DNA from: Croceicoccus mobilis
Lineage (GTDB): Bacteria > Pseudomonadota > Alphaproteobacteria > Sphingomonadales > Sphingomonadaceae
Direction of reading: 5' to 3'
NCBI RefSeq assembly: GCF_001661965.1
Contig: NZ_LYWZ01000030.1
Location: forward strand, 1-64,000
DNA length: 64,000 nucleotides
Under the pieces are notes generated by a model. The model had not been told where the DNA came from and ran no database searches. It saw only the letters and a program-made list of their open reading frames with translations. Below, in pieces: positions 6,381-22,565 of this stretch. The position numbers and the translations under genes were made by a program. The first letter of the stretch is position 1. Each line of letters begins with the position of its first letter.

Positions 6381-7616
6381 ATGGCCAAAGCGCATGACAT
6401 CGTCATCATCGGCGGCGGTTCCGCCGGCATCGCCACGGCATCATCGATGCTGAAGCGCAGGCCGTCGCTCGACATCGCCATCGTCGAACCTTCGGGCGTG
6501 CATTATTATCAGCCGGGCTGGACCATGGTCGGCGGCGGCGTGTTCGATGCGCCCGTGACCTGCCGCTCGATGGAAAGCGTCATGCCTTCCACCGTGACAT
6601 GGGTGAAGGACGCGTGTGAGAGTTTCCAACCGGAGCAGAAGCAGGTCACGCTGCGCGATGGATCGACGCTTTCATACAAGATCCTGATCGTCGCCCCCGG
6701 CATCCGCCTTGCGTGGGAAAAGATCGACGGCCTGGCCGATGCGCTGGGCACCAATGGCGTTACCTCGAACTATCGCTACGATCTCGCGCCCTATACCTGG
6801 CAGACGGTACAGGCGTTAAAGGAAGGCGTGGCGCTGTTCACCCAGCCGCCGATGCCGATCAAATGCGCAGGCGCGCCGCAAAAGGCGATGTACCTGTCGT
6901 GCGACGAATGGCTGGGTTCGGGTGCGCTGAAGAACATCGATGTCCAGTTCCACAATGCGGGCGGCGTATTGTTCGGCGTCGATGCCTATATCCCGGCGCT
7001 GATGGAATATATCGAACGTTACGGCATCGACCTCAATCTCGGCTCAACGCTGGTAGCCGTGGATGGTCCGGCACAAAAAGCAACCTTCAAGACGGCCGAG
7101 GGCGAGGTCACGCGCGATTTCGACATGCTGCACGCGGTGCCGCCGCAGGTCGCCCCCGATTTCGTGGCGAACAGCCCGCTGGCGGGTGAAACCGGCTTTG
7201 TCGATGTCGACCAGTTCACCATGCAGCATGTGCGTTTTCCCGATATTTTCAGCCTTGGCGATGCGGGCGGCATGCCCAATGCAAAGACCGCCGCTGCCGC
7301 GCGCAAGCAGGCGCCGATCGTTGCGGTCAACGCGCTTGCGGTGCTGGATGGGAAGGAGCCGGTGTCGGACTACGACGGCTATGGCTCATGCCCGCTGACG
7401 GTTGAGCGCGGCAAGATCGTGCTGGCCGAATTCGGCTATGGCGGCAAGCTGCTGCCCAGCTTCCCGAAATGGGTGATCGACGGAACGCGGCCGCGTAAGC
7501 TTTCGTGGCTTTTGAAGAGCGAGGCGCTGCCGTGGATCTATTGGAACGGCATGCTCAAGGGGCATGAGTGGCTGGTGAAGCCGCAGATGAACCACGGGGT
7601 CAAGGACGCGGCCTGA
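6381..7616 (+). CDS. Sulfide:quinone oxidoreductase-like flavoprotein
   Basis: A 411-aa FAD enzyme of the type II SQR/SQRDL kind, which oxidises sulfide to a persulfide and passes electrons to the quinone pool at the membrane. The N-terminal dinucleotide-binding motif is VIIGGGSAGIATA. The two catalytic cysteines expected for the type are seen at Cys162 (PIKCAGAPQKAM) and Cys337 (GYGSCPLTV). FSLGDAGGMPN is the second FAD motif. The C-terminal segment around LPWIYWNGMLKG is amphipathic and may be the membrane anchor. GGAGAG precedes the start. The product persulfide would be the substrate of the first gene of the operon. Confidence 0.9.
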   Translation: MAKAHDIVIIGGGSAGIATASSMLKRRPSLDIAIVEPSGVHYYQPGWTMVGGGVFDAPVTCRSMESVMPSTVTWVKDACESFQPEQKQVTLRDGSTLSYKILIVAPGIRLAWEKIDGLADALGTNGVTSNYRYDLAPYTWQTVQALKEGVALFTQPPMPIKCAGAPQKAMYLSCDEWLGSGALKNIDVQFHNAGGVLFGVDAYIPALMEYIERYGIDLNLGSTLVAVDGPAQKATFKTAEGEVTRDFDMLHAVPPQVAPDFVANSPLAGETGFVDVDQFTMQHVRFPDIFSLGDAGGMPNAKTAAAARKQAPIVAVNALAVLDGKEPVSDYDGYGSCPLTVERGKIVLAEFGYGGKLLPSFPKWVIDGTRPRKLSWLLKSEALPWIYWNGMLKGHEWLVKPQMNHGVKDAA

Positions 7617-11995: not shown

Positions 11996-12032
11996 CGCGA
12001 TACTGTGCTGTGCATCACAGCGCGGTATCGCG
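11996..12032 (+). other. 17-bp hairpin between fghA and the cysteine synthase gene
   Basis: Left arm 11996-12012 and right arm 12016-12032 can pair over 17 positions (two G-U in RNA) with a CAT loop. It starts 25 bases after the fghA stop and ends 46 bases before the cysteine synthase ATG. A GC run but no T-run follows. It may be a factor-dependent terminator for the formaldehyde operon or a leader structure for the next gene. Confidence 0.5.
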
Positions 12033-12078: not shown

Positions 12079-13572
12079 ATGACCCGCTATAATTCCATTC
12101 TCGACACCATCGGCAACACGCCTGCCGTGCGTATCAACAATCTCGGCCCCAAGGTGCGTGCGCGCGGGGTTGAACTCTACGTCAAGATCGAGAGCGCCAA
12201 TCCCATGGCCTCGGTCAAGGATCGCCTTGCTCTTGGCGTGATCGAGGCGGCCGAACGCGACGGTTCGCTGCAGCCCGGACAGACCGTGATCGAGGCGACC
12301 AGCGGCAATACCGGTATCGGCCTTGCCATGGTCTGCGCGCAGAAAGGCTATCCGCTTGTCATCGTGATGGCCGAGAGCTTCTCGGTCGAACGTCGCCGCC
12401 TGATGCGCTTTCTGGGCGCGAAGGTCGTGCTGACGCCCGCTGGCGTTAAGGGTTCGGGCATGATCGCCAAGGCGCAGGAACTGGCCGACAAGCATGGCTG
12501 GTTCCTCGCCCGCCAGTTCGAGAACGAGGCGAACCCCGACATGCATTCGCGCACCACCGCGCGTGAGATCATCGCCGATTTCGATGGCCGGGGCCCCGAT
12601 TACTTCGTCACCGGTTTCGGCACCGGCGGCACGCTGAAGGGCATTGCCCGCGTGCTGCGCGCCGAATGCCCCGATACGCAGATCATCGCGGCAGAGCCTG
12701 AAAATTCGCCGCTGATGGGGTCGGGCATACTGCAGCAATATGATGTCGATGGCCGGCCTGCCGCTAGCCACCCTTCTGCCCGCCCGCACCCGATGCAGGG
12801 CTGGTCGCCCGACTTCACGCCGAAGATGGCGCATGATGTCTTGCAGGCCGGCATGATCGACCGCGTCATCGGCGTGGAAGGCGCAGACGCACTGACCTGT
12901 TCGCGTGATCTGGCGCGCAAGGAAGGCATCTTTTGCGGCATAACAAGCGGCGCGACCTTCGCCGCCGCGCTGAAGGTTGCCGAGAACGCGCCTGCCGGTT
13001 CGCGTATCCTTGCCATGCTGCCCGATACGGGCGAACGCTATATGTCGACCGTGCTGTTCGACGGGATCGAGGCCGGGATGGACGAGGACGAACTCGCCAT
13101 CTCGACCAGCACGCCGATGGCGCAGTTCGGCGCTTCGGCTCCGGCTGCCCCGATCAAGGCGCCCATCGTGGCCGCCGATCATCCCGGCGCGCGTGAACTC
13201 GCCCGCATCCTGCTCGGCACCGAAGAGCCGGTGACCATGTTCGGTTTCGAATGGTGCGAATTCTGCTGGTCGGCGCGCGCGATGCTCGATGATTGCGGCG
13301 TACCCTATCGCACCGTCAATCTCGACGCCGCCGATGCGGACAAGGCCGCCATGGCCGAATTGCGCCAGGCCCTGTTCGCGCGCTGCAAGGTGCCCTTCGT
13401 GCCGCAGATTTTCGTAGGCGAACGGCTGATCGGCGGCTGCAGCGAACTTTTCGCCGCCTATGCCGACGGGTCGCTGCAGGCCGCTTTGGCGACGCGCGGC
13501 CATGTGCTGGGCCACAACGACAATTTCGACCCCGCCGCATACCTGCCCAAGTGGATGCAGGCACGGGCCTGA
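12079..13572 (+). CDS. Cysteine synthase-glutaredoxin fusion
   Basis: A 497-aa two-domain cytosolic protein. Residues about 1-330 form a fold-type II PLP enzyme of the O-acetylserine sulfhydrylase family: Lys47 in PMASVKDRLA binds PLP, EATSGNTGIG is the substrate loop, GTGGTLKG the phosphate loop, and SGATFAAAL follows. After a linker rich in Ala and Pro (about 340-375), residues about 385-455 form a glutaredoxin with a dithiol site Cys393-Glu-Phe-Cys396 and a cis-proline motif near KVPFVPQIFV. The fusion would bring thiol-disulfide or persulfide chemistry to cysteine synthesis. SD AAGGA precedes the start. It is followed closely by a PLP decarboxylase. Confidence 0.9.
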   Translation: MTRYNSILDTIGNTPAVRINNLGPKVRARGVELYVKIESANPMASVKDRLALGVIEAAERDGSLQPGQTVIEATSGNTGIGLAMVCAQKGYPLVIVMAESFSVERRRLMRFLGAKVVLTPAGVKGSGMIAKAQELADKHGWFLARQFENEANPDMHSRTTAREIIADFDGRGPDYFVTGFGTGGTLKGIARVLRAECPDTQIIAAEPENSPLMGSGILQQYDVDGRPAASHPSARPHPMQGWSPDFTPKMAHDVLQAGMIDRVIGVEGADALTCSRDLARKEGIFCGITSGATFAAALKVAENAPAGSRILAMLPDTGERYMSTVLFDGIEAGMDEDELAISTSTPMAQFGASAPAAPIKAPIVAADHPGARELARILLGTEEPVTMFGFEWCEFCWSARAMLDDCGVPYRTVNLDAADADKAAMAELRQALFARCKVPFVPQIFVGERLIGGCSELFAAYADGSLQAALATRGHVLGHNDNFDPAAYLPKWMQARA

Positions 13573-13595
13573 GGCAAAGGACAAGGAGAAGAACG

Positions 13596-15017
13596 ATGAG
13601 CGATCTCGCCGCCCTTCTGGCCAATGCTGCCAGCCGCGCCGCACGCTATCGGCAGCAGGTGGCGAAACGCTCGCCGCTGCCGACGGCCAGCCTGTCGGAA
13701 CTTCGCGCCGCACTCTGTCGTCCTCTGGGCGAAGAGGGACGGCTAGCCAGCGAAGTCATCGCCGAACTCGCCGATGCGGCGGAACCGGGGTTCGCTGGCA
13801 CCACCAGCCCGGCCTTCCACGGCTGGGTCATCGGTGGGTCGCATCCCGCCGGGGTCGCGGCAGAGATGCTGACGGCGGCATGGGGGCAGAATGCGGTGCT
13901 CTACCAATCCGCGCCCGCTGCCGCCGTGGTGGAGGAAGCGGCGGCCGGATGGCTGCTCGACCTCCTCGACATGCCGCGCGAAAGCTCGGTCGGCTTTGCG
14001 ACCGGCGCGACGATGGCGAGCTTCATCGGCCTGACCGCCGCGCGCATCGCCATGCTGGAACGCGCGGGCTGGGATCTGGAGCAGGACGGGTTGTTCGGCG
14101 CACCCGAAGTCACCGTGTTTCTGGGGGCCGAAGCGCATTCGACGATCTTCCACGCACTGCGCCTGCTGGGTTTCGGTCGCCGCCGTCTGGTGACGGTGGA
14201 GGCTGACGGGGAAGGGCGCATGATGCCGGGCGCCTTGGCCCGTGCCATGGCGCGCCGTTCCGGCCCAGCCATCGTCATCGCGCAGGCGGGGCACATCAAT
14301 TCGGGCGCGTTCGACGACATCACCGCCATTGCCGCCACCGCGCAGGCCCGCGGCGCATGGCTGCATGTCGATGGCGCTTTCGGCATGTGGGCACGCGCCA
14401 GCCGCACCCGCCGGCATCTCGCAAAGGGCATGCATCTGGCGGACAGCTGCTCACTCGACGGTCATAAATGGCTGCAGGTGCCCTATGACTGCGGCTATGC
14501 GATCCTGCGCAATGCCGACATGCACCGCCGCGCCATGTCGATCAGCGCCAGCTATCTGAACCGCGAGGCCGAGGGCGGGCGCAATCCCAGCGACTATGTG
14601 CCCGAACTTTCGCGCCGCGCGCGCGGTTTCGCCAGCTGGGCGGTGATGCGGGCCTTGGGCCGCAAGGGTATCGCCGACATTATCGAGGACAGCTGCGACA
14701 ATGCCCGTATCTTCGCCGTGCTCTGCGCGATGGAGCCGTCGATCCGGGTGATGAACGATGTGCAATTGAACCAGGTCTGCATCGCCCCGCGCAATCGCGC
14801 AAACGAGGATGCGATCGTGGCGCGGGTGTCGCAGGCGCTGGCCGATGACGGACGCTATTTCGTGAAGCCCGCCGAATGGCAGGGGCGGCCCGTGCTTCGC
14901 TTTTCCTTTTGCGGGCAGCCAGCCACCCATGTGCAGGTGGAGGCGATGGCCGCACTCGTCGCCTGCGCCTTTGCGAAAGCCGATCCCATGGCGGACGGGA
15001 GCCGCATGGCAGCCTGA
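13596..15017 (+). CDS. PLP-dependent group II amino-acid decarboxylase
   Basis: A 473-aa fold-type I decarboxylase of the glutamate/aromatic-amino-acid/cysteine-sulfinate group. The PLP lysine is Lys291 in SLDGHKWLQVPYD. The Asp of HVDGAFG binds the PLP nitrogen, and TSPAFHGWV and GATMASFIGL are group motifs. The start at 13596 follows AAGGAG. The gene begins 23 bases after the cysteine synthase fusion and is probably cotranscribed, so a cysteine-derived substrate (for example cysteine sulfinate) is conceivable. The sequence does not fix the substrate. Confidence 0.85.
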   Translation: MSDLAALLANAASRAARYRQQVAKRSPLPTASLSELRAALCRPLGEEGRLASEVIAELADAAEPGFAGTTSPAFHGWVIGGSHPAGVAAEMLTAAWGQNAVLYQSAPAAAVVEEAAAGWLLDLLDMPRESSVGFATGATMASFIGLTAARIAMLERAGWDLEQDGLFGAPEVTVFLGAEAHSTIFHALRLLGFGRRRLVTVEADGEGRMMPGALARAMARRSGPAIVIAQAGHINSGAFDDITAIAATAQARGAWLHVDGAFGMWARASRTRRHLAKGMHLADSCSLDGHKWLQVPYDCGYAILRNADMHRRAMSISASYLNREAEGGRNPSDYVPELSRRARGFASWAVMRALGRKGIADIIEDSCDNARIFAVLCAMEPSIRVMNDVQLNQVCIAPRNRANEDAIVARVSQALADDGRYFVKPAEWQGRPVLRFSFCGQPATHVQVEAMAALVACAFAKADPMADGSRMAA

Positions 15018-15053: not shown

Positions 15054-15788
15054 TTGACTTCCGCGCCCTTTGTGTTTGGTTATCCGTGGATGGAGGGACT
15101 CTGGGATCTGATCGCCCGGCTTGACGATACCGCGCTTTTGCGCGCGTTCGAGCCGGATGCCTTGTCCGACCTGCTCAATCGCGGCCAGCGCCGCCATTTG
15201 AAGCGGGGGGAGGAGGTTATCCGGCAGGGGGATGACGGCGATTTTCTTGTCGTGCTGCTGACAGGCCATCTCAAGATTGGCCTTGCAAGTGCGAATGGGC
15301 GCGACATCATCCTGGGCTATGCGGAACCGGGCGACGTGCTGGGAGAGATCGCCATGCTCGACGATTGCCCGCGCACCGCAACCGTATCTGCCAGCGAACC
15401 AGCGGAAGTGGTCATCGTCTCGCGCGCCGATTTCCGGCATGCGGCGATGGACCGGCCTGAATCGATGTGGGCGATGATGCGGTTGATGGCGAACCGCATC
15501 CGCCTGCTTGACCAGACGGTTGAGGGGGATCGCAGCTTTTCGATGGGGCCGCGCCTTGCGCGTGTGATCGTTCGGCTGATGCCGGTGGAGGCGGCTGGCG
15601 ACGGGGCGCTGAGGCTGGATCTCAGCCAGTCGGACCTCGGCGCTTTTGCTGGGCTCAGCCGGGAAAACGTCAATCGCCAGATCGGCGAATGGGAAGCGGC
15701 CGGGGTGCTGGCGCGGGCGGGGAGGAAGCTGGTGATCCTCGACCCTGAGTATATCCGCGAACTGGCCGAATTCGGGGATCCGGAATAG
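15054..15788 (+). CDS. Crp/Fnr family transcriptional regulator
   Basis: A 244-aa one-component regulator with an N-terminal cyclic-nucleotide-binding-type beta barrel (RGEEVIRQGDDGDFLVVLLTG, EPGDVLGEIAMLDDCPRTATV) and a C-terminal helix-turn-helix (LSQSDLGAFAGLSRENVNRQIGEWE split at about residue 200). No N-terminal cysteine cluster is present, so it is not an oxygen-sensing FNR. The barrel keeps GE and R in GEIAMLDDCPRT, the cAMP phosphate-binding pattern. The start is TTG at 15054, with ATG at 15090 as an alternative. An adenylate cyclase is encoded just downstream on the other strand. Confidence 0.87.
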   Translation: MTSAPFVFGYPWMEGLWDLIARLDDTALLRAFEPDALSDLLNRGQRRHLKRGEEVIRQGDDGDFLVVLLTGHLKIGLASANGRDIILGYAEPGDVLGEIAMLDDCPRTATVSASEPAEVVIVSRADFRHAAMDRPESMWAMMRLMANRIRLLDQTVEGDRSFSMGPRLARVIVRLMPVEAAGDGALRLDLSQSDLGAFAGLSRENVNRQIGEWEAAGVLARAGRKLVILDPEYIRELAEFGDPE

Positions 15789-15852: not shown

Positions 15853-15972
15853 TCATGCCATCTGCTCGAAGGCGGCCTCGGTCACAGAGGCGTTCATCAC
15901 ATTGATGCCGCCCGAAAGAACACATGCGGCGGCGAAGATCGCCATCACGGAATTACGGATCATTTCCTGCAT
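15853..15972 (-). CDS. 39-aa hydrophobic small protein
   Basis: A 39-codon reading frame with a strong ribosome binding site: GAAGGAG lies 7 bases before the ATG at 15972. The peptide has a short charged start (MQEMIRNS), a hydrophobic run of about 17 residues (VMAIFAAACVLSGGINV) and a polar tail with two acidic residues, so it could be a membrane or exported peptide. It lies 120 bases downstream of the adenylate cyclase gene on the same strand and ends beside a perfect hairpin. I recognise no family. The RBS and position are the main support. Confidence 0.55.
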   Translation of the reverse strand: MQEMIRNSVMAIFAAACVLSGGINVMNASVTEAAFEQMA

Positions 15973-16092
15973 TTTCTTACTCCTTCATCACTGGCGGGGC
16001 ACCGTGCCGCGCCGTGTGAAGGCTGTTTAGGGGAGGGGCCGCGCCCCGACTGTGCCGCAGGTCACAGGGCCAAAAAAATTGCCACAAAAACT

Positions 16093-17136
16093 TCAGCGCT
16101 TTTCGAAATCGAGCGAATAGATGCGCTGCTTGCCGAAGCCCTTTACCTCCAGCTCGTCGATCTCGCTGGTGGCAAAACTGTCGTCGAGGGCATCGCGAAA
16201 GCCTTGCGAGATGGTGATCCCCATCGGATCGCACAGCTGCTCCATCCGTGCGGCAAGGTTCACCGCGGGGCCGAAGATGTCATAGACATATTTCTGGATG
16301 CCCACCATCGATCCGATCAGCGATCCGCGCGCAAGGCCGATGCGGAACTGCCAGACATTGGAATGCGCAGCGTTCCGCTTTTCAAGGAAACGCTTCATGC
16401 GCACAGCGACGCGGGCAAGGTGGACGGCATGGTTGTCGCCCTGATCGGGCACGCCCGCCACCGCGATATAGGCATCGCCGATCGTCTTGATCCGCTCGCA
16501 TTGGTAAAGCTCGGTAATGCGGTCGAAGGCGCTGAAGATGTCGTTCAACTCGCTGACCAAGGCGCCGGGTTCGCGCGCGACCGTCATTTCGGTGAAGTTC
16601 ACGAAGTCGAGCATCAGCACGCTGGCATCGTCATAGCGTTCGGGGGTGGTGGTGCCGTAGTCGCGCAGTTCCTCGTAAACGGTGCGGGGCATGAGGTTGA
16701 GGAGCAGCTTTTCCACCCGCTCCTTTTCGCGGCTCAGTTCCTTGGCGTTTTTCTCGGCCATGCGGGCATAGCTGTCGAGCATGTATTCCGCCTCGCGCTG
16801 CTTGGCGACATCGCGGCCCTCGGCCAAAAGGAAGCGCTGCCCGCCGCTTTCGATGAAACGCAATTCAACCTGCTGCTGGCTTTTGCGCGTATCGCCGCCA
16901 AGGTCGATGTCGGCCTTGTACGCACGGCCCGACGACAGGCGGCGTTCGGCCTTGTCCCAGTCGACCTGGGTCAGATGTTCGGCAAGCGCGTCGCTCTCCA
17001 CTTCGGGCTTACGGAAAAGTTCGAAGAAAGCGGCGTTTTCATAGAGGATCAGGCGGCTGTCGGCATCGGCCAGCGCAACCGGCGCGGACAGCGCGGCGCA
17101 GGCGATCTGCGCAGGCGTCAGGCTGTCACTCGACAA
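16093..17136 (-). CDS. PAS-type sensor class III adenylate cyclase
   Basis: A 347-aa protein. Residues about 10-115 look like a PAS fold (ALADADSRLILYENAAFFEL, FLLAEGRD). Residues 115-150 form a coiled-coil signalling helix, and 165-345 a class III nucleotide cyclase domain. Both metal aspartates are seen (Asp177 in LMLDFVNF and Asp221 in IGDAYIAV). Lys217 and Asp286 are the purine-specifying pair of adenylate rather than guanylate cyclases. Asn293 and Arg297 are the transition-state pair in VNLAARME. All catalytic residues are therefore present. There is no membrane segment. The first codons overlap the end of the truncated haemoglobin gene by 11 bases. Confidence 0.9.
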   Translation of the reverse strand: MSSDSLTPAQIACAALSAPVALADADSRLILYENAAFFELFRKPEVESDALAEHLTQVDWDKAERRLSSGRAYKADIDLGGDTRKSQQQVELRFIESGGQRFLLAEGRDVAKQREAEYMLDSYARMAEKNAKELSREKERVEKLLLNLMPRTVYEELRDYGTTTPERYDDASVLMLDFVNFTEMTVAREPGALVSELNDIFSAFDRITELYQCERIKTIGDAYIAVAGVPDQGDNHAVHLARVAVRMKRFLEKRNAAHSNVWQFRIGLARGSLIGSMVGIQKYVYDIFGPAVNLAARMEQLCDPMGITISQGFRDALDDSFATSEIDELEVKGFGKQRIYSLDFEKR

Positions 17137-17482
17137 TGAACGACCTCAAGTTCTCCACCTCGCGCACCACGGCGTCGCGGTCGGCGTCCTCGAACCCTGC
17201 ATCGTCCAGCGTTTCGTCAAGAATGTCGCATAGCCGGTCGTAGTCCTCCTCGGTAATCTCGCGCCGGCGATGGGCGCGGGCCAGTTCCTCCTTGGACAGA
17301 TGGGCCGGGCCGCCGAGCAGCGAGGAGATCATCTTCGTCTGGTGGTCGATGAGCTGGCGCATGTTCACGCCCACGAAATGGCGCTGCAGCAGATTGTCGT
17401 CGAGCACCTCGTCGTAAAAGGCCGACACGACTTTGCGTACTTCGGCAAAGCCGCCGTACTTCTCGAACATGGATTGCGCCAA
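17126..17482 (-). CDS. Group I truncated haemoglobin
   Basis: A 118-aa haem protein of the 2-on-2 globin fold. The start SMFEKYGGFAEVRKVVSAFYDEVLDD matches the A-B helices with Tyr23 at the B10 position. Phe36 (LLQRHF) is CD1, the E helix is LIDHQTKMISSLLGGP, and His71 in LARAHRRREIT is the proximal F8 haem ligand. Such proteins bind O2, NO or CO and may act in NO detoxification or sensing. Its stop lies inside the start of the cyclase gene, which implies cotranslation and argues that the two work together. Alternative readings are simple NO dioxygenase or oxygen carrier roles. Confidence 0.88.
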   Translation of the reverse strand: MAQSMFEKYGGFAEVRKVVSAFYDEVLDDNLLQRHFVGVNMRQLIDHQTKMISSLLGGPAHLSKEELARAHRRREITEEDYDRLCDILDETLDDAGFEDADRDAVVREVENLRSFIVE

Positions 17483-19975: not shown

Positions 19976-21145
19976 ATGCTCGCGTTCGTAAAGGCACGGT
20001 ATACGGTTGGTCTCATCGGCCTCGACATCGTCGACCGCGCCAAAGTGAACATCATTCTGGAGAAGGCCTTCGCCGATGGCGAAGCCTCATGGCTGGCGCT
20101 CTACAACGACAGCTGCGACCTCATCATCACATCGGGCAACCTGCCCGTCGAGGCGATGGATGAGCAGATCGTTGCCCGGATCGTCGATGCCGACTGCCCG
20201 GATGATGGCCCGTTCCTGCTGCGCCGCCCGTTGAGCCATGAGGCTATCGTCAGCCTCCTGCGCAATGCTGAGGCCCAGCTCGACAGCTCCGCTCCCGCGC
20301 CCGAATATGGCCGCCTCAAGGTCACTGGCGTGACCGAGGTGCAGCCCGGTGAAGAGCGCGCGGTGGAGATGGCCGAGGCCGCTCCTGCCGCTGCCCCGGC
20401 GCCGCAGATGCATCCGCAGTTCGCCGCGCTCGGCCCTTCGTATCAGCAGCAGATCGCCGCGCAGCAGGCGCCGCGCCCCTATCCGCCCACGCAGGCGCAA
20501 CGCGGTGTCGCCGCCAGCGCCAATGCTGGCAGCGAAACGGTGGGCGAGAGCTGGGCCGATATCTCGATCGCGCTTTATTCCATCCTGCAGACCCGCGTGC
20601 CGACAATGGCGCGCATCAACCTGCCGCACGCCGAATCGATCCTGATCGATTTCCCGGGCCGCCGCTTTCAGTGCGCAGGCTTTCCGGATTCGATCCCGCT
20701 GCAGCCGCACCAGGTCGTGCTGCGCGCCACGCTGGCGCAGCCGGGACAGGGTCTGCCGCAGGGGCAGCCGCTCGAACGGCTGCTCTGGTTCATCGGCACG
20801 CGCGCTTTGGGCGCCGGGCTGGCGCCGTGGCTGTGCGCCGAAGACCGCTGCCGCCTCGTGCAGTGGCCGAACTTTACCGTGCTCGACCATTCGATCGATC
20901 ACATGCGGATGACCGCTGCCATGGGGAACGGCCTGCTGACCGCAGAGGAGCTTTCGCTACTTTCGGGCGTGCCGTTCCAAAAGGCCGCGGGCATCCTCAA
21001 CGCATTCAGCCTGATGGGTCTCCTCCACATCGAGCGCCAACCCGCTCCGGCCCCGCGCGTGCCCGCGCCGGTGGCCGGAACCGGGGTGGGAACGCGCTCC
21101 TCGGGAAGCCTGTTCGGCAAGCTCATCCGGAAAATGGGACTCTAA
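19976..21145 (+). CDS. Multidomain protein of unknown family, first gene of GTPase/Roadblock operon
   Basis: A 389-aa cytosolic protein I do not recognise. Residues about 8-105 have an alternating beta-alpha pattern ending in FLLRRPLSHEAIVSLLRNAE that resembles a receiver-like domain without the usual catalytic Asp/Lys set. Residues about 110-185 are an Ala/Pro/Gln-rich linker, and about 186-350 a globular region containing WADISIALYSILQ. The end (GLLTAEELSLLSGVPFQKAA, then LMGLLHI) looks like a small winged helix, as seen in the DUF742/DUF4388 partners of Roadblock proteins. A short basic tail ends the protein. It lies four bases before the GTPase gene, so the two are cotranslated. Confidence 0.7.
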   Translation: MLAFVKARYTVGLIGLDIVDRAKVNIILEKAFADGEASWLALYNDSCDLIITSGNLPVEAMDEQIVARIVDADCPDDGPFLLRRPLSHEAIVSLLRNAEAQLDSSAPAPEYGRLKVTGVTEVQPGEERAVEMAEAAPAAAPAPQMHPQFAALGPSYQQQIAAQQAPRPYPPTQAQRGVAASANAGSETVGESWADISIALYSILQTRVPTMARINLPHAESILIDFPGRRFQCAGFPDSIPLQPHQVVLRATLAQPGQGLPQGQPLERLLWFIGTRALGAGLAPWLCAEDRCRLVQWPNFTVLDHSIDHMRMTAAMGNGLLTAEELSLLSGVPFQKAAGILNAFSLMGLLHIERQPAPAPRVPAPVAGTGVGTRSSGSLFGKLIRKMGL

Positions 21146-21149
21146 GGCC

Positions 21150-21716
21150 ATGGCAGAACACGTCATTCTCTTTGCCGGGCCGATGTGTGCAGGCAAGACC
21201 ACCGCGATCCGCAGCCTGTCGGAGATCGAGACGATCTCGACCGAGGCGGCGAATACCGATCGCGAAACCGCCGACAAGGACACGACCACCGTCGCGCTCG
21301 ATTATGGTGAGATCACCATCGGAGACGAGGACAAGGTGCGCCTTTACGGCCTGCCGGGCCAGCGCCGGTTCGATTTCATGTGGCGCATCCTGATGGAACG
21401 CGCGGTCGGACTGGTGCTGCTGGTCAATAATGACGCGGCAGACCCGTTGGGCCAGCTGGCCGAATTCCTGGAGGAATTCGCGGAACTTCACGAACGTGGC
21501 GGCATCGTGGTGGGCATCACCCGCGCCGATATCGCCGAGGGGCCTTCGCTTGGCGATTATGCGCAGACCATCGCGAAATCGACATCCGGCGCAATCATCC
21601 CCGTTTTCACCGTCGATGCGCGCGACGGCAATCACATGCAAACGTGCCTCCTCTCGCTCATCGCCAATATCGAGAGCCGGGCGGCACTGGCCTATCAGCA
21701 GGAGCAGGCAGCGTGA
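21150..21716 (+). CDS. MglA/SRPRB-like small Ras-family GTPase
   Basis: A 188-aa P-loop GTPase of the bacterial MglA/COG2229 group. The Walker A is GPMCAGKTT (residues 10-18), switch I contains TTVALDYG, and switch II is LYGLPGQRRFDFM with the Gln present. The base-recognition motif is TRAD rather than NKxD, as in many COG2229 proteins, and VFTVDARD stands in for the last motif. It is expected to cycle between GTP and GDP under control of the Roadblock proteins encoded downstream. Such modules control polarity and motility in Myxococcus or work with sensor kinases in actinobacterial conservons. The cell process in this organism is unknown. Confidence 0.85.
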   Translation: MAEHVILFAGPMCAGKTTAIRSLSEIETISTEAANTDRETADKDTTTVALDYGEITIGDEDKVRLYGLPGQRRFDFMWRILMERAVGLVLLVNNDAADPLGQLAEFLEEFAELHERGGIVVGITRADIAEGPSLGDYAQTIAKSTSGAIIPVFTVDARDGNHMQTCLLSLIANIESRAALAYQQEQAA

Positions 21717-22123
21717 GCGACAAGCTTCACAAGAACCCGGTCGTCGTCGAGCACGCCCGTGCGGCGCTTGAGACGTTCCGTTCGCATTCGAAGTCGCTGG
21801 GATATGCGACGATCCTCACCACCGACGGTTTCGAGGTGGCCAGCATCGCAGGCGATGCGCAGCAGACGCGACGGGTCGCCTCCATGGCCTCCTCTATGCA
21901 GGCGCTGGGCGATGCGGTCGCCCGCGATCTCAAGATGGGGACCTGCGACTACATCATCATCGCTGCGCCCTCGGGCTATGTGATCCAGCTGCGTGTTCCG
22001 GGGTATGACCTTGTTATCGCAGCACATTTCGACTCGGCGGAAACGCTGGGCAAGGCCCTGTCGGTGGCGCGTCTCGCCGCCAATGACATGGCACAGGTTT
22101 CGGTGGCTGCTGCCGCCGCATGA
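21713..22123 (+). CDS. Roadblock/LC7 domain protein (MglB-like)
   Basis: A 136-aa protein of the Roadblock/LC7 fold. It shows SKSLGYATILTTDGFEVASIAG, MASSMQALGDAVARDL and YIIIAAPSGYVIQLRVPG, the usual strand-helix-strand order. These proteins dimerise and act as GTPase-activating or effector platforms for MglA-like GTPases. The GTG start at 21713 overlaps the GTPase stop (GTGA) and follows GGAG, so the pair is coupled. The longer upstream frame is inside the GTPase gene. Confidence 0.85.
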   Translation: MSDKLHKNPVVVEHARAALETFRSHSKSLGYATILTTDGFEVASIAGDAQQTRRVASMASSMQALGDAVARDLKMGTCDYIIIAAPSGYVIQLRVPGYDLVIAAHFDSAETLGKALSVARLAANDMAQVSVAAAAA

Positions 22124-22184
22124 CGATGGGGAGTGGGCGGGCTCTCTTTTGTTTTTGGACCACCGCTTAAGGAAGGAAATGACA

Positions 22185-22565
22185 ATGGCTACTGTTATTG
22201 ATTCGACGAGCATCAAGGCAACCCTGAGCGAGCTGCTCAGCATCGATGGTGCGAAGGCTGCCGCGATCGTCGATTCGGAAAGCGGCATGGTGCTGGGCAA
22301 GGACGGTTCGGGCCTCGATCTCGACGTCGCCGGCGCCGGCAACACCGAAGTGGTGCGCGCCAAGCTCAAGACCATGAAGGCTCTGGGCCTGACCAAGGAT
22401 GCGATCGACGACATCCTGATCACGCTGACCAGCCAGTATCACATCATCCGTCCGATCTCGGGCCGTCCGACCGTGTTCATCTACCTGGTCCTCGACAAGG
22501 AAAAATCGAACCTGGCGCTGGCCCGCCTCAAGTGCGCCGACTGCGATCGCGCCCTGGACGTGTAA
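22185..22565 (+). CDS. Second Roadblock/LC7-like protein
   Basis: A 126-aa protein (TLSELLSIDGAKAAAIVDSE, then DILITLTSQYHIIRPIS and TVFIYLVLD) with the strand-helix-strand pattern of the Roadblock superfamily but sequence-diverged from the neighbour at 21713. It carries CADC near its C terminus, a cysteine pair the other copy lacks. GGAAGGA at 22171-22177 selects the ATG at 22185 over the one at 22179. The 61-base gap and strong SD suggest a higher translation rate than its neighbours. A strong hairpin terminator follows. Confidence 0.75.
   Translation: MATVIDSTSIKATLSELLSIDGAKAAAIVDSESGMVLGKDGSGLDLDVAGAGNTEVVRAKLKTMKALGLTKDAIDDILITLTSQYHIIRPISGRPTVFIYLVLDKEKSNLALARLKCADCDRALDV

Follow-up and report, generated by a model that had tools for sequence, protein, structure and literature searches.

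What does a truncated haemoglobin do when its gene runs into that of a nucleotide cyclase? The question is raised by a 64,000-nt stretch of Croceicoccus mobilis DNA, the whole of which we call the window. On its minus strand, ORF and Pfam analyses place a 118-aa group 1 truncated haemoglobin (17126-17482) directly before a 347-aa class III cyclase with a TTG start (16093-17136; also supported by a structure model). An earlier note on this DNA, made from the sequence alone, had proposed that the gas-bound globin controls cAMP formation and that a nearby Crp/Fnr regulator carries the signal to transcription.

The globin and cyclase genes overlap

The TGA of the globin gene (17128-17126) lies inside the cyclase ORF, giving an overlap of 11 nt, and these ORF coordinates bear out the claim that the globin stop falls 11 bases within the cyclase gene. 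Both assignments are well above Pfam cut-offs: the globin matches Bac_globin (1.5e-16; PF01152, 61.1 bits against a cut-off of 21), and the cyclase matches Guanylate_cyc (2.5e-42; PF00211, 145 bits against 21.9). The globin has a truncated globin fold, the proximal His at F8 and group 1 proteins as its best solved relatives. Its haem-pocket residues are Tyr23 (B10), Phe36 (CD1), Leu44 (E7), His47 (E10), Gln48 (E11) and His71 (F8), with E7 and E11 assigned through Tetrahymena alignments. The adenylate-type class III residues of the cyclase (Asp177, Lys217, Asp221, Asp286, Asn293 and Arg297) are complete, as had been claimed together with the globin's His71, and Lys217 and Asp286 point to ATP as the substrate. 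In the model, the cyclase consists of a PAS-like part (residues ~8-109), a long helix (111-148) and the catalytic domain. As to the description of the enzyme as a PAS-cyclase, strands and helices of the N-terminal part follow one another in the model as in a PAS domain, but this part has no Pfam PAS match.

Full-length cyclases of this subfamily are paired with the globin

Among 296 genomes of the order (cyclase cut-off E <= 1e-40, globin E <= 1e-10), the cyclase occurs in five and the globin in six; in all five genomes that have both, the globin gene immediately precedes the cyclase gene on the same strand, and the sixth globin, a weak match, has no cyclase with it. A scan of relatives, with one genome per species, kept the best 80 of 199 and left the other 119 unseen; these 80, the window and four loci from the order survey make up 85 rows, which correspond to 84 distinct loci because L016 and L031 are the same. 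In this set the globin is upstream on the same strand in 83 rows, or 82 of the 84 loci, with the aligned ends of globin and cyclase -7 to 322 nt apart in the 83 paired rows. One globin-less row, L030, has only ~210 bases upstream before its contig ends. The other locus, L046, has a subfamily cyclase but no globin in a 19-kb stretch.

Surveys of the class and phylum, whose genome sets overlap with each other and with that of the order, gave the same picture. Full-length cyclases were found in 14 of 327 class genomes (E <= 1e-60), two of them with in-frame stops (G501 and G321), and each has a globin no more than 1.5 kb away. The phylum survey (398 genomes; 1e-50) yielded 17 matches, of which three are full-length and have the globin; the matches of the 14 next-best cyclases start only at profile position 99 or beyond, that is, from the coiled coil onward, and none of these cyclases has a globin within 1.5 kb. 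The restriction of the globin to full-length cyclases indicates that the N-terminal part is what accompanies it. The full-length subfamily is rare (5/296, 14/327 and 3/398 sampled genomes) yet near-obligately paired with the globin. Conservation of the pair, on which the earlier note had staked its proposal, is thus found in 82 of 84 distinct loci and 14 of 14 class genomes, and we rejected chance adjacency on the order, 84-locus, class and phylum counts.

Two bins labelled Chloroflexota (L052 and L056) carry the pair within the alphaproteobacterial tree, reflecting either transfer or binning error. In the record of plasmid pLA3 the pair is annotated only as a group 1 truncated hemoglobin and an adenylate/guanylate cyclase domain-containing protein. 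A link between truncated haemoglobins and bacterial nucleotide cyclases was not found in those parts of the open-access literature that were consulted; PMC1592074 may note one.

The distance matrices of globin and cyclase are strongly correlated: across 82 loci r is 0.89, a value reached by none of 2000 permutations. Part of this co-divergence is due to shared descent. In the cyclase (85 rows, one locus counted twice), Asp177, Asp221 and Asp286 are kept in all 85, Lys217 in 83, Arg297 in 82 and Asn293 in 77; five of the eight rows in which Asn293 is altered are loci with a kinase gene, described below. Conservation within the cyclase is lowest in its PAS-like part, which gives little reason to assume a tightly fixed interface. 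In the globin, Tyr23, Phe36, His47, Gln48 and His71 are kept in all 83 paired rows.

A clade-specific helix, DHQTKF, places His at E10 in all 95 paired rows, compared with 5 of 32 unpaired rows (the 32 include several repeats of one gene). Those five are three genes of the same globin clade with no cyclase beside them, and the remaining unpaired truncated globins have Lys, Met, Arg, Ser or Ala at this position. In Synechocystis GlbN, His46 is a haem ligand; by analogy, His47 may serve as a sixth haem ligand here. Clade globins L145, L146 and L147 have no adjoining cyclase. At L146 (4626-5437) the globin gene overlaps by 4 bases a gene for a 146-aa PAS-like protein that has a charged helical tail and belongs to no Pfam family, and no cyclase accompanies it; its comparison with the cyclase N-terminus gave an hhalign probability of 0.74 percent (E 0.076), so that kinship between the two is no more than a hint.

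The cyclase resembles soluble guanylate cyclase without an H-NOX domain

The cyclase model has a mean pLDDT of 85.2, with a pTM of 0.56 that leaves domain placement unsure. Its best full-length PDB matches in Foldseek are soluble guanylate cyclases (361-405 columns, best E 2e-20), at TM-scores of ~0.49. When only the catalytic part is considered, Rv1625c-type cyclases of bacteria, among others, match equally well or better. Like animal soluble guanylate cyclase (H-NOX, PAS, coiled coil, cyclase), the chain combines a PAS-like domain, a long helix and a class III cyclase in one soluble protein. It differs in its adenylate-type residues and in that the haem protein is a separate globin-fold chain: H-NOX has no Pfam match in the cyclase, where only the HNOBA tail appears, below its cut-off (16.7 versus 23.4 bits). 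We therefore rejected membership in soluble guanylate cyclase, as the cyclase chain lacks the H-NOX haem domain. The simplest reading is that of a cyclase of the soluble guanylate cyclase type that would receive its haem sensor in trans, as a separate protein.

Other known arrangements share parts of this one. HemAC-Lm of Leishmania is a globin-adenylate cyclase with O2-dependent cAMP production; it is one fused chain, whereas here there are two genes and the globin is truncated. Stand-alone H-NOX proteins are encoded in operons with separate signalling partners, so that sensor and enzyme are likewise products of neighbouring genes, but here the sensor would be a truncated haemoglobin and the enzyme a cAMP-type cyclase. 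Membership in the fused globin-coupled sensors was rejected, since the ORFs are separate and no fused pair occurs among the 83 paired rows. As a separate observation, alphaproteobacterial CheA proteins with an inserted truncated-haemoglobin domain are encoded at L149 (3682-6657), L151 (3713-6817), L153 (1893-4841) and L154 (2860-6456), the last with two such domains.

Crp and kinase genes beside the pair

A Crp/Fnr-type regulator gene (15054-15788, plus strand) is convergent with the cyclase gene and ends 304 bases from its end. It is preceded on the plus strand by genes for a cysteine synthase with a C-terminal glutaredoxin part (12079-13572; likely ATG at 12079), named through similarity to the L017 protein, and a PLP-dependent decarboxylase (13593-15017; Pfam). 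Between crp and the cyclase gene lies a possible 39-aa ORF on the minus strand (15853-15972) with an AAGGAG ribosome site. We rejected it as a conserved part of the locus: besides its own, it had one weak match (E 0.005, inside a longer frame) in 149 genomes. Elsewhere in the window, a plus-strand cluster at 19976-22565 encodes a hypothetical protein, a small GTPase-like protein and roadblock-like proteins.

Across the 85 rows (the best 80 of 199 relatives, the window and the four order loci), a convergent crp is present in seven, which represent six genomes including that of the window, and 78 have no crp at the cut-off used. A PAS histidine kinase gene is present in 28, each with a response regulator match, and at the cut-offs used no row has both crp and kinase. 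In the tree built from the cyclases, the six loci with crp fall within one supported 14-row group and require two changes, with the window on a long branch grouping with L021 and L022 (100/95); of the 28 loci with a kinase, 25 belong to the opposite half. Cysteine synthase and decarboxylase genes adjoin the pair in the window, L021 and L022, and also in the kinase-type loci L017-L019 and plasmid pLA3 of Novosphingobium pentaromativorans US6-1. Their association with the pair thus occurs in both halves of the tree.

Two further gene families recur near the pair. In many kinase-type loci, genes for an alpha/beta hydrolase and a SAM methyltransferase precede the pair, divergent from the kinase gene (L072, 6761-8458, and equivalents). 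A family of ~325 aa that appears ferritin-like by eye and has no Pfam match (L021, 11084-12124) is encoded near the pair in L016/L031, L021, L029, L035, L037 and L045.

The Crp-type regulator and its candidate sites

The earlier note had described a Crp/Fnr protein with cAMP-type residues some 300 bases away on the other strand. Position and phosphate/sugar contacts agree with this description (304 bases; G97, E98, R107 and T108 kept), but the base-contacting Thr of the long helix is replaced, with L152 and D153 at these positions. In the closest solved relative, Clr of Sinorhizobium meliloti (7pza), an alphaproteobacterial cNMP-dependent Crp, Thr140 and Thr141 contact the base (PMC10127613). 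The core site of Clr is GTNNCNNNNGNNAC, compared with TGTGA-N6-TCACA here, where the base-contacting Thr pair is absent. Given Leu152 and Asp153, the cAMP response of the window Crp may be altered or lost. As to the source of cAMP, a search of the genome for PF00211 and class I cyclases found a single PF00211 enzyme and none of class I.

Two CRP-type palindromes lie beside these genes: TGTGCTGTGCATCACA (12004-12019), 60 bases before the likely cysteine synthase ATG, and TGTGCCGCAGGTCACA (16051-16066), between the cyclase end and the 39-aa ORF, which begins 78 bases after it and is all that this site precedes. A scan of the window allowing up to two mismatches gave 14 sites versus 14.7 expected, no excess over chance. 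When one mismatch is allowed, the whole genome has 26 sites, compared with 13 for the reversed pattern; exact TGTG-N8-CACA sites number seven (eight for the control), and two of each set are in the 5.5-kb cassette. The genome-wide totals are weak evidence, and only the placement of the cassette sites stands out. As the motif was sought after the first site had been noticed, the relatives provide the better test.

In the six Crp loci (104 kb), 12 sites have at most one mismatch to TGTGA-N6-TCACA, compared with a mean of 1.0 and a maximum of 3 in 40 dinucleotide shuffles and none for the reversed pattern. Corresponding counts against the reversed control were 21 versus 5 in kinase loci and 6 versus 7 in other loci. 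Sites lie near the crp start in L016, L021, L022, L023 and L029, before the decarboxylase gene in L021 and L022 or the cysteine synthase gene in the window, and before the ferritin-like gene in L021 and L029; the one crp-near site of L016 also falls by the ferritin-like gene. L022 has a site before the globin gene and another, at 7318, inside a gene. Several sites are shared with a divergent gene. Among 22 divergent promoter regions of kinase-type loci, perfect sites occur in L064, L085, L087 and L089 and the majority have none, so we do not claim such sites as a general trait of these promoters; a further perfect site is at kinase-type L096:6580.

These data suggest that the window Crp-type regulator probably binds TGTGA-type sites near the pair. 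It is rather unlikely, in our estimation, that this Crp stands outside the route, placed there by chance or unable to bind cAMP. The replacement of both base-contacting threonines and the linkage in only six genomes speak for such a reading. Against it are the Thr-Asn found at the base-contacting positions of the other five linked Crps, the clustering of the six loci on the tree, the 12 sites where 1.0 is expected and the G-E...R-T pocket, which only the window Crp has among five Crp/Fnr proteins compared in the genome (a sixth cNMP-domain protein was outside the comparison). Of the complete gas-to-cAMP-to-transcription route that had been proposed, the step from cAMP to transcription is retained for this branch, with its sole PF00211 cyclase, convergent crp in six genomes and CRP-type sites. 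As a general route it does not stand, given the 78 of 85 rows without crp, the 28 with kinase and response regulator and the missing Thr pair of the window Crp.

The globin as a candidate haem sensor acting in trans

We consider it likely (probability roughly 0.7) that the globin serves the cyclase in trans as its own haem sensor subunit. Through the PAS-coiled-coil part it would alter the cyclase dimer when its haem binds O2, NO or CO or changes redox state, and the altered dimer would change cAMP output, the contact, ligand and sign of the effect being what we infer. The logic would be that of animal soluble guanylate cyclase, with H-NOX exchanged for a separately encoded truncated haemoglobin. 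This reading is based on the gene pair, its co-occurrence and co-divergence, the model folds with soluble guanylate cyclase as best full-length match, the clade-specific globin helix and the single class III cyclase of the genome; for the step to Crp, what is shown is the site enrichment. Counted against it are the L046 cyclase without a globin, the clade globins L145, L146 and L147 without a cyclase, the pTM of 0.56, the TM-scores of ~0.49 and the loss of Asn293 in 8 of 85 rows.

Alternatively, the globin could act enzymatically, perhaps as an NO dioxygenase, or as a scavenger, and be made together with the cyclase without contacting it, gas handling and cAMP both being parts of a single stress response. 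The closest folds to the globin model are group 1 truncated haemoglobins such as HbN of M. tuberculosis, which is an NO dioxygenase, and Tyr B10 and Gln E11 are retained. The window globin has the sequence type and fold of the truncated haemoglobin N/cyanoglobin group, from which it differs in its invariant DHQ helix motif, the His at E10 and its fixed gene partner. Co-expression alone would not explain why the globin is limited to cyclases with this N-terminal part, and the near-obligate pairing spans two deep branches with different neighbours; we regard this alternative as unlikely. Quite improbable is a globin that binds the cyclase as a haem-loading, redox or stability partner, for although an E10 His acting as sixth haem ligand, as in Synechocystis GlbN, could make a redox-type site, Tyr B10, Gln E11 and the pocket are of the ligand-binding group 1 globin type.

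With the globin as sensor subunit, cAMP in this branch would act through the convergently encoded Crp, with presumed cAMP binding by the window protein, on TGTGA-type sites; predicted targets are crp, the cysteine synthase and decarboxylase genes, the ferritin-like gene and, in one genome, the globin gene. The fullest form of this proposal, which we would give an even chance, is a two-part bacterial counterpart of soluble guanylate cyclase in which a free truncated haemoglobin, perhaps with His47 as an alternative haem ligand, controls a PAS-coiled-coil adenylate cyclase in trans, and the cyclase, as the sole class III source of cAMP, drives a Crp regulon of thiol and PLP chemistry via TGTGA-type sites.

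Many bacteria have truncated haemoglobins, and a function is known for few of these proteins; the near-obligate pairing with one cyclase subfamily suggests a testable one in gas sensing, and shows how a haem sensor could reach a cyclase of the soluble guanylate cyclase type in trans. Alphaproteobacterial cAMP signalling would gain a possible gas input and a predicted set of target genes. If the proposal is true, the pair would be the only class III source of cAMP in this C. mobilis genome, with a Crp regulon dedicated to it.
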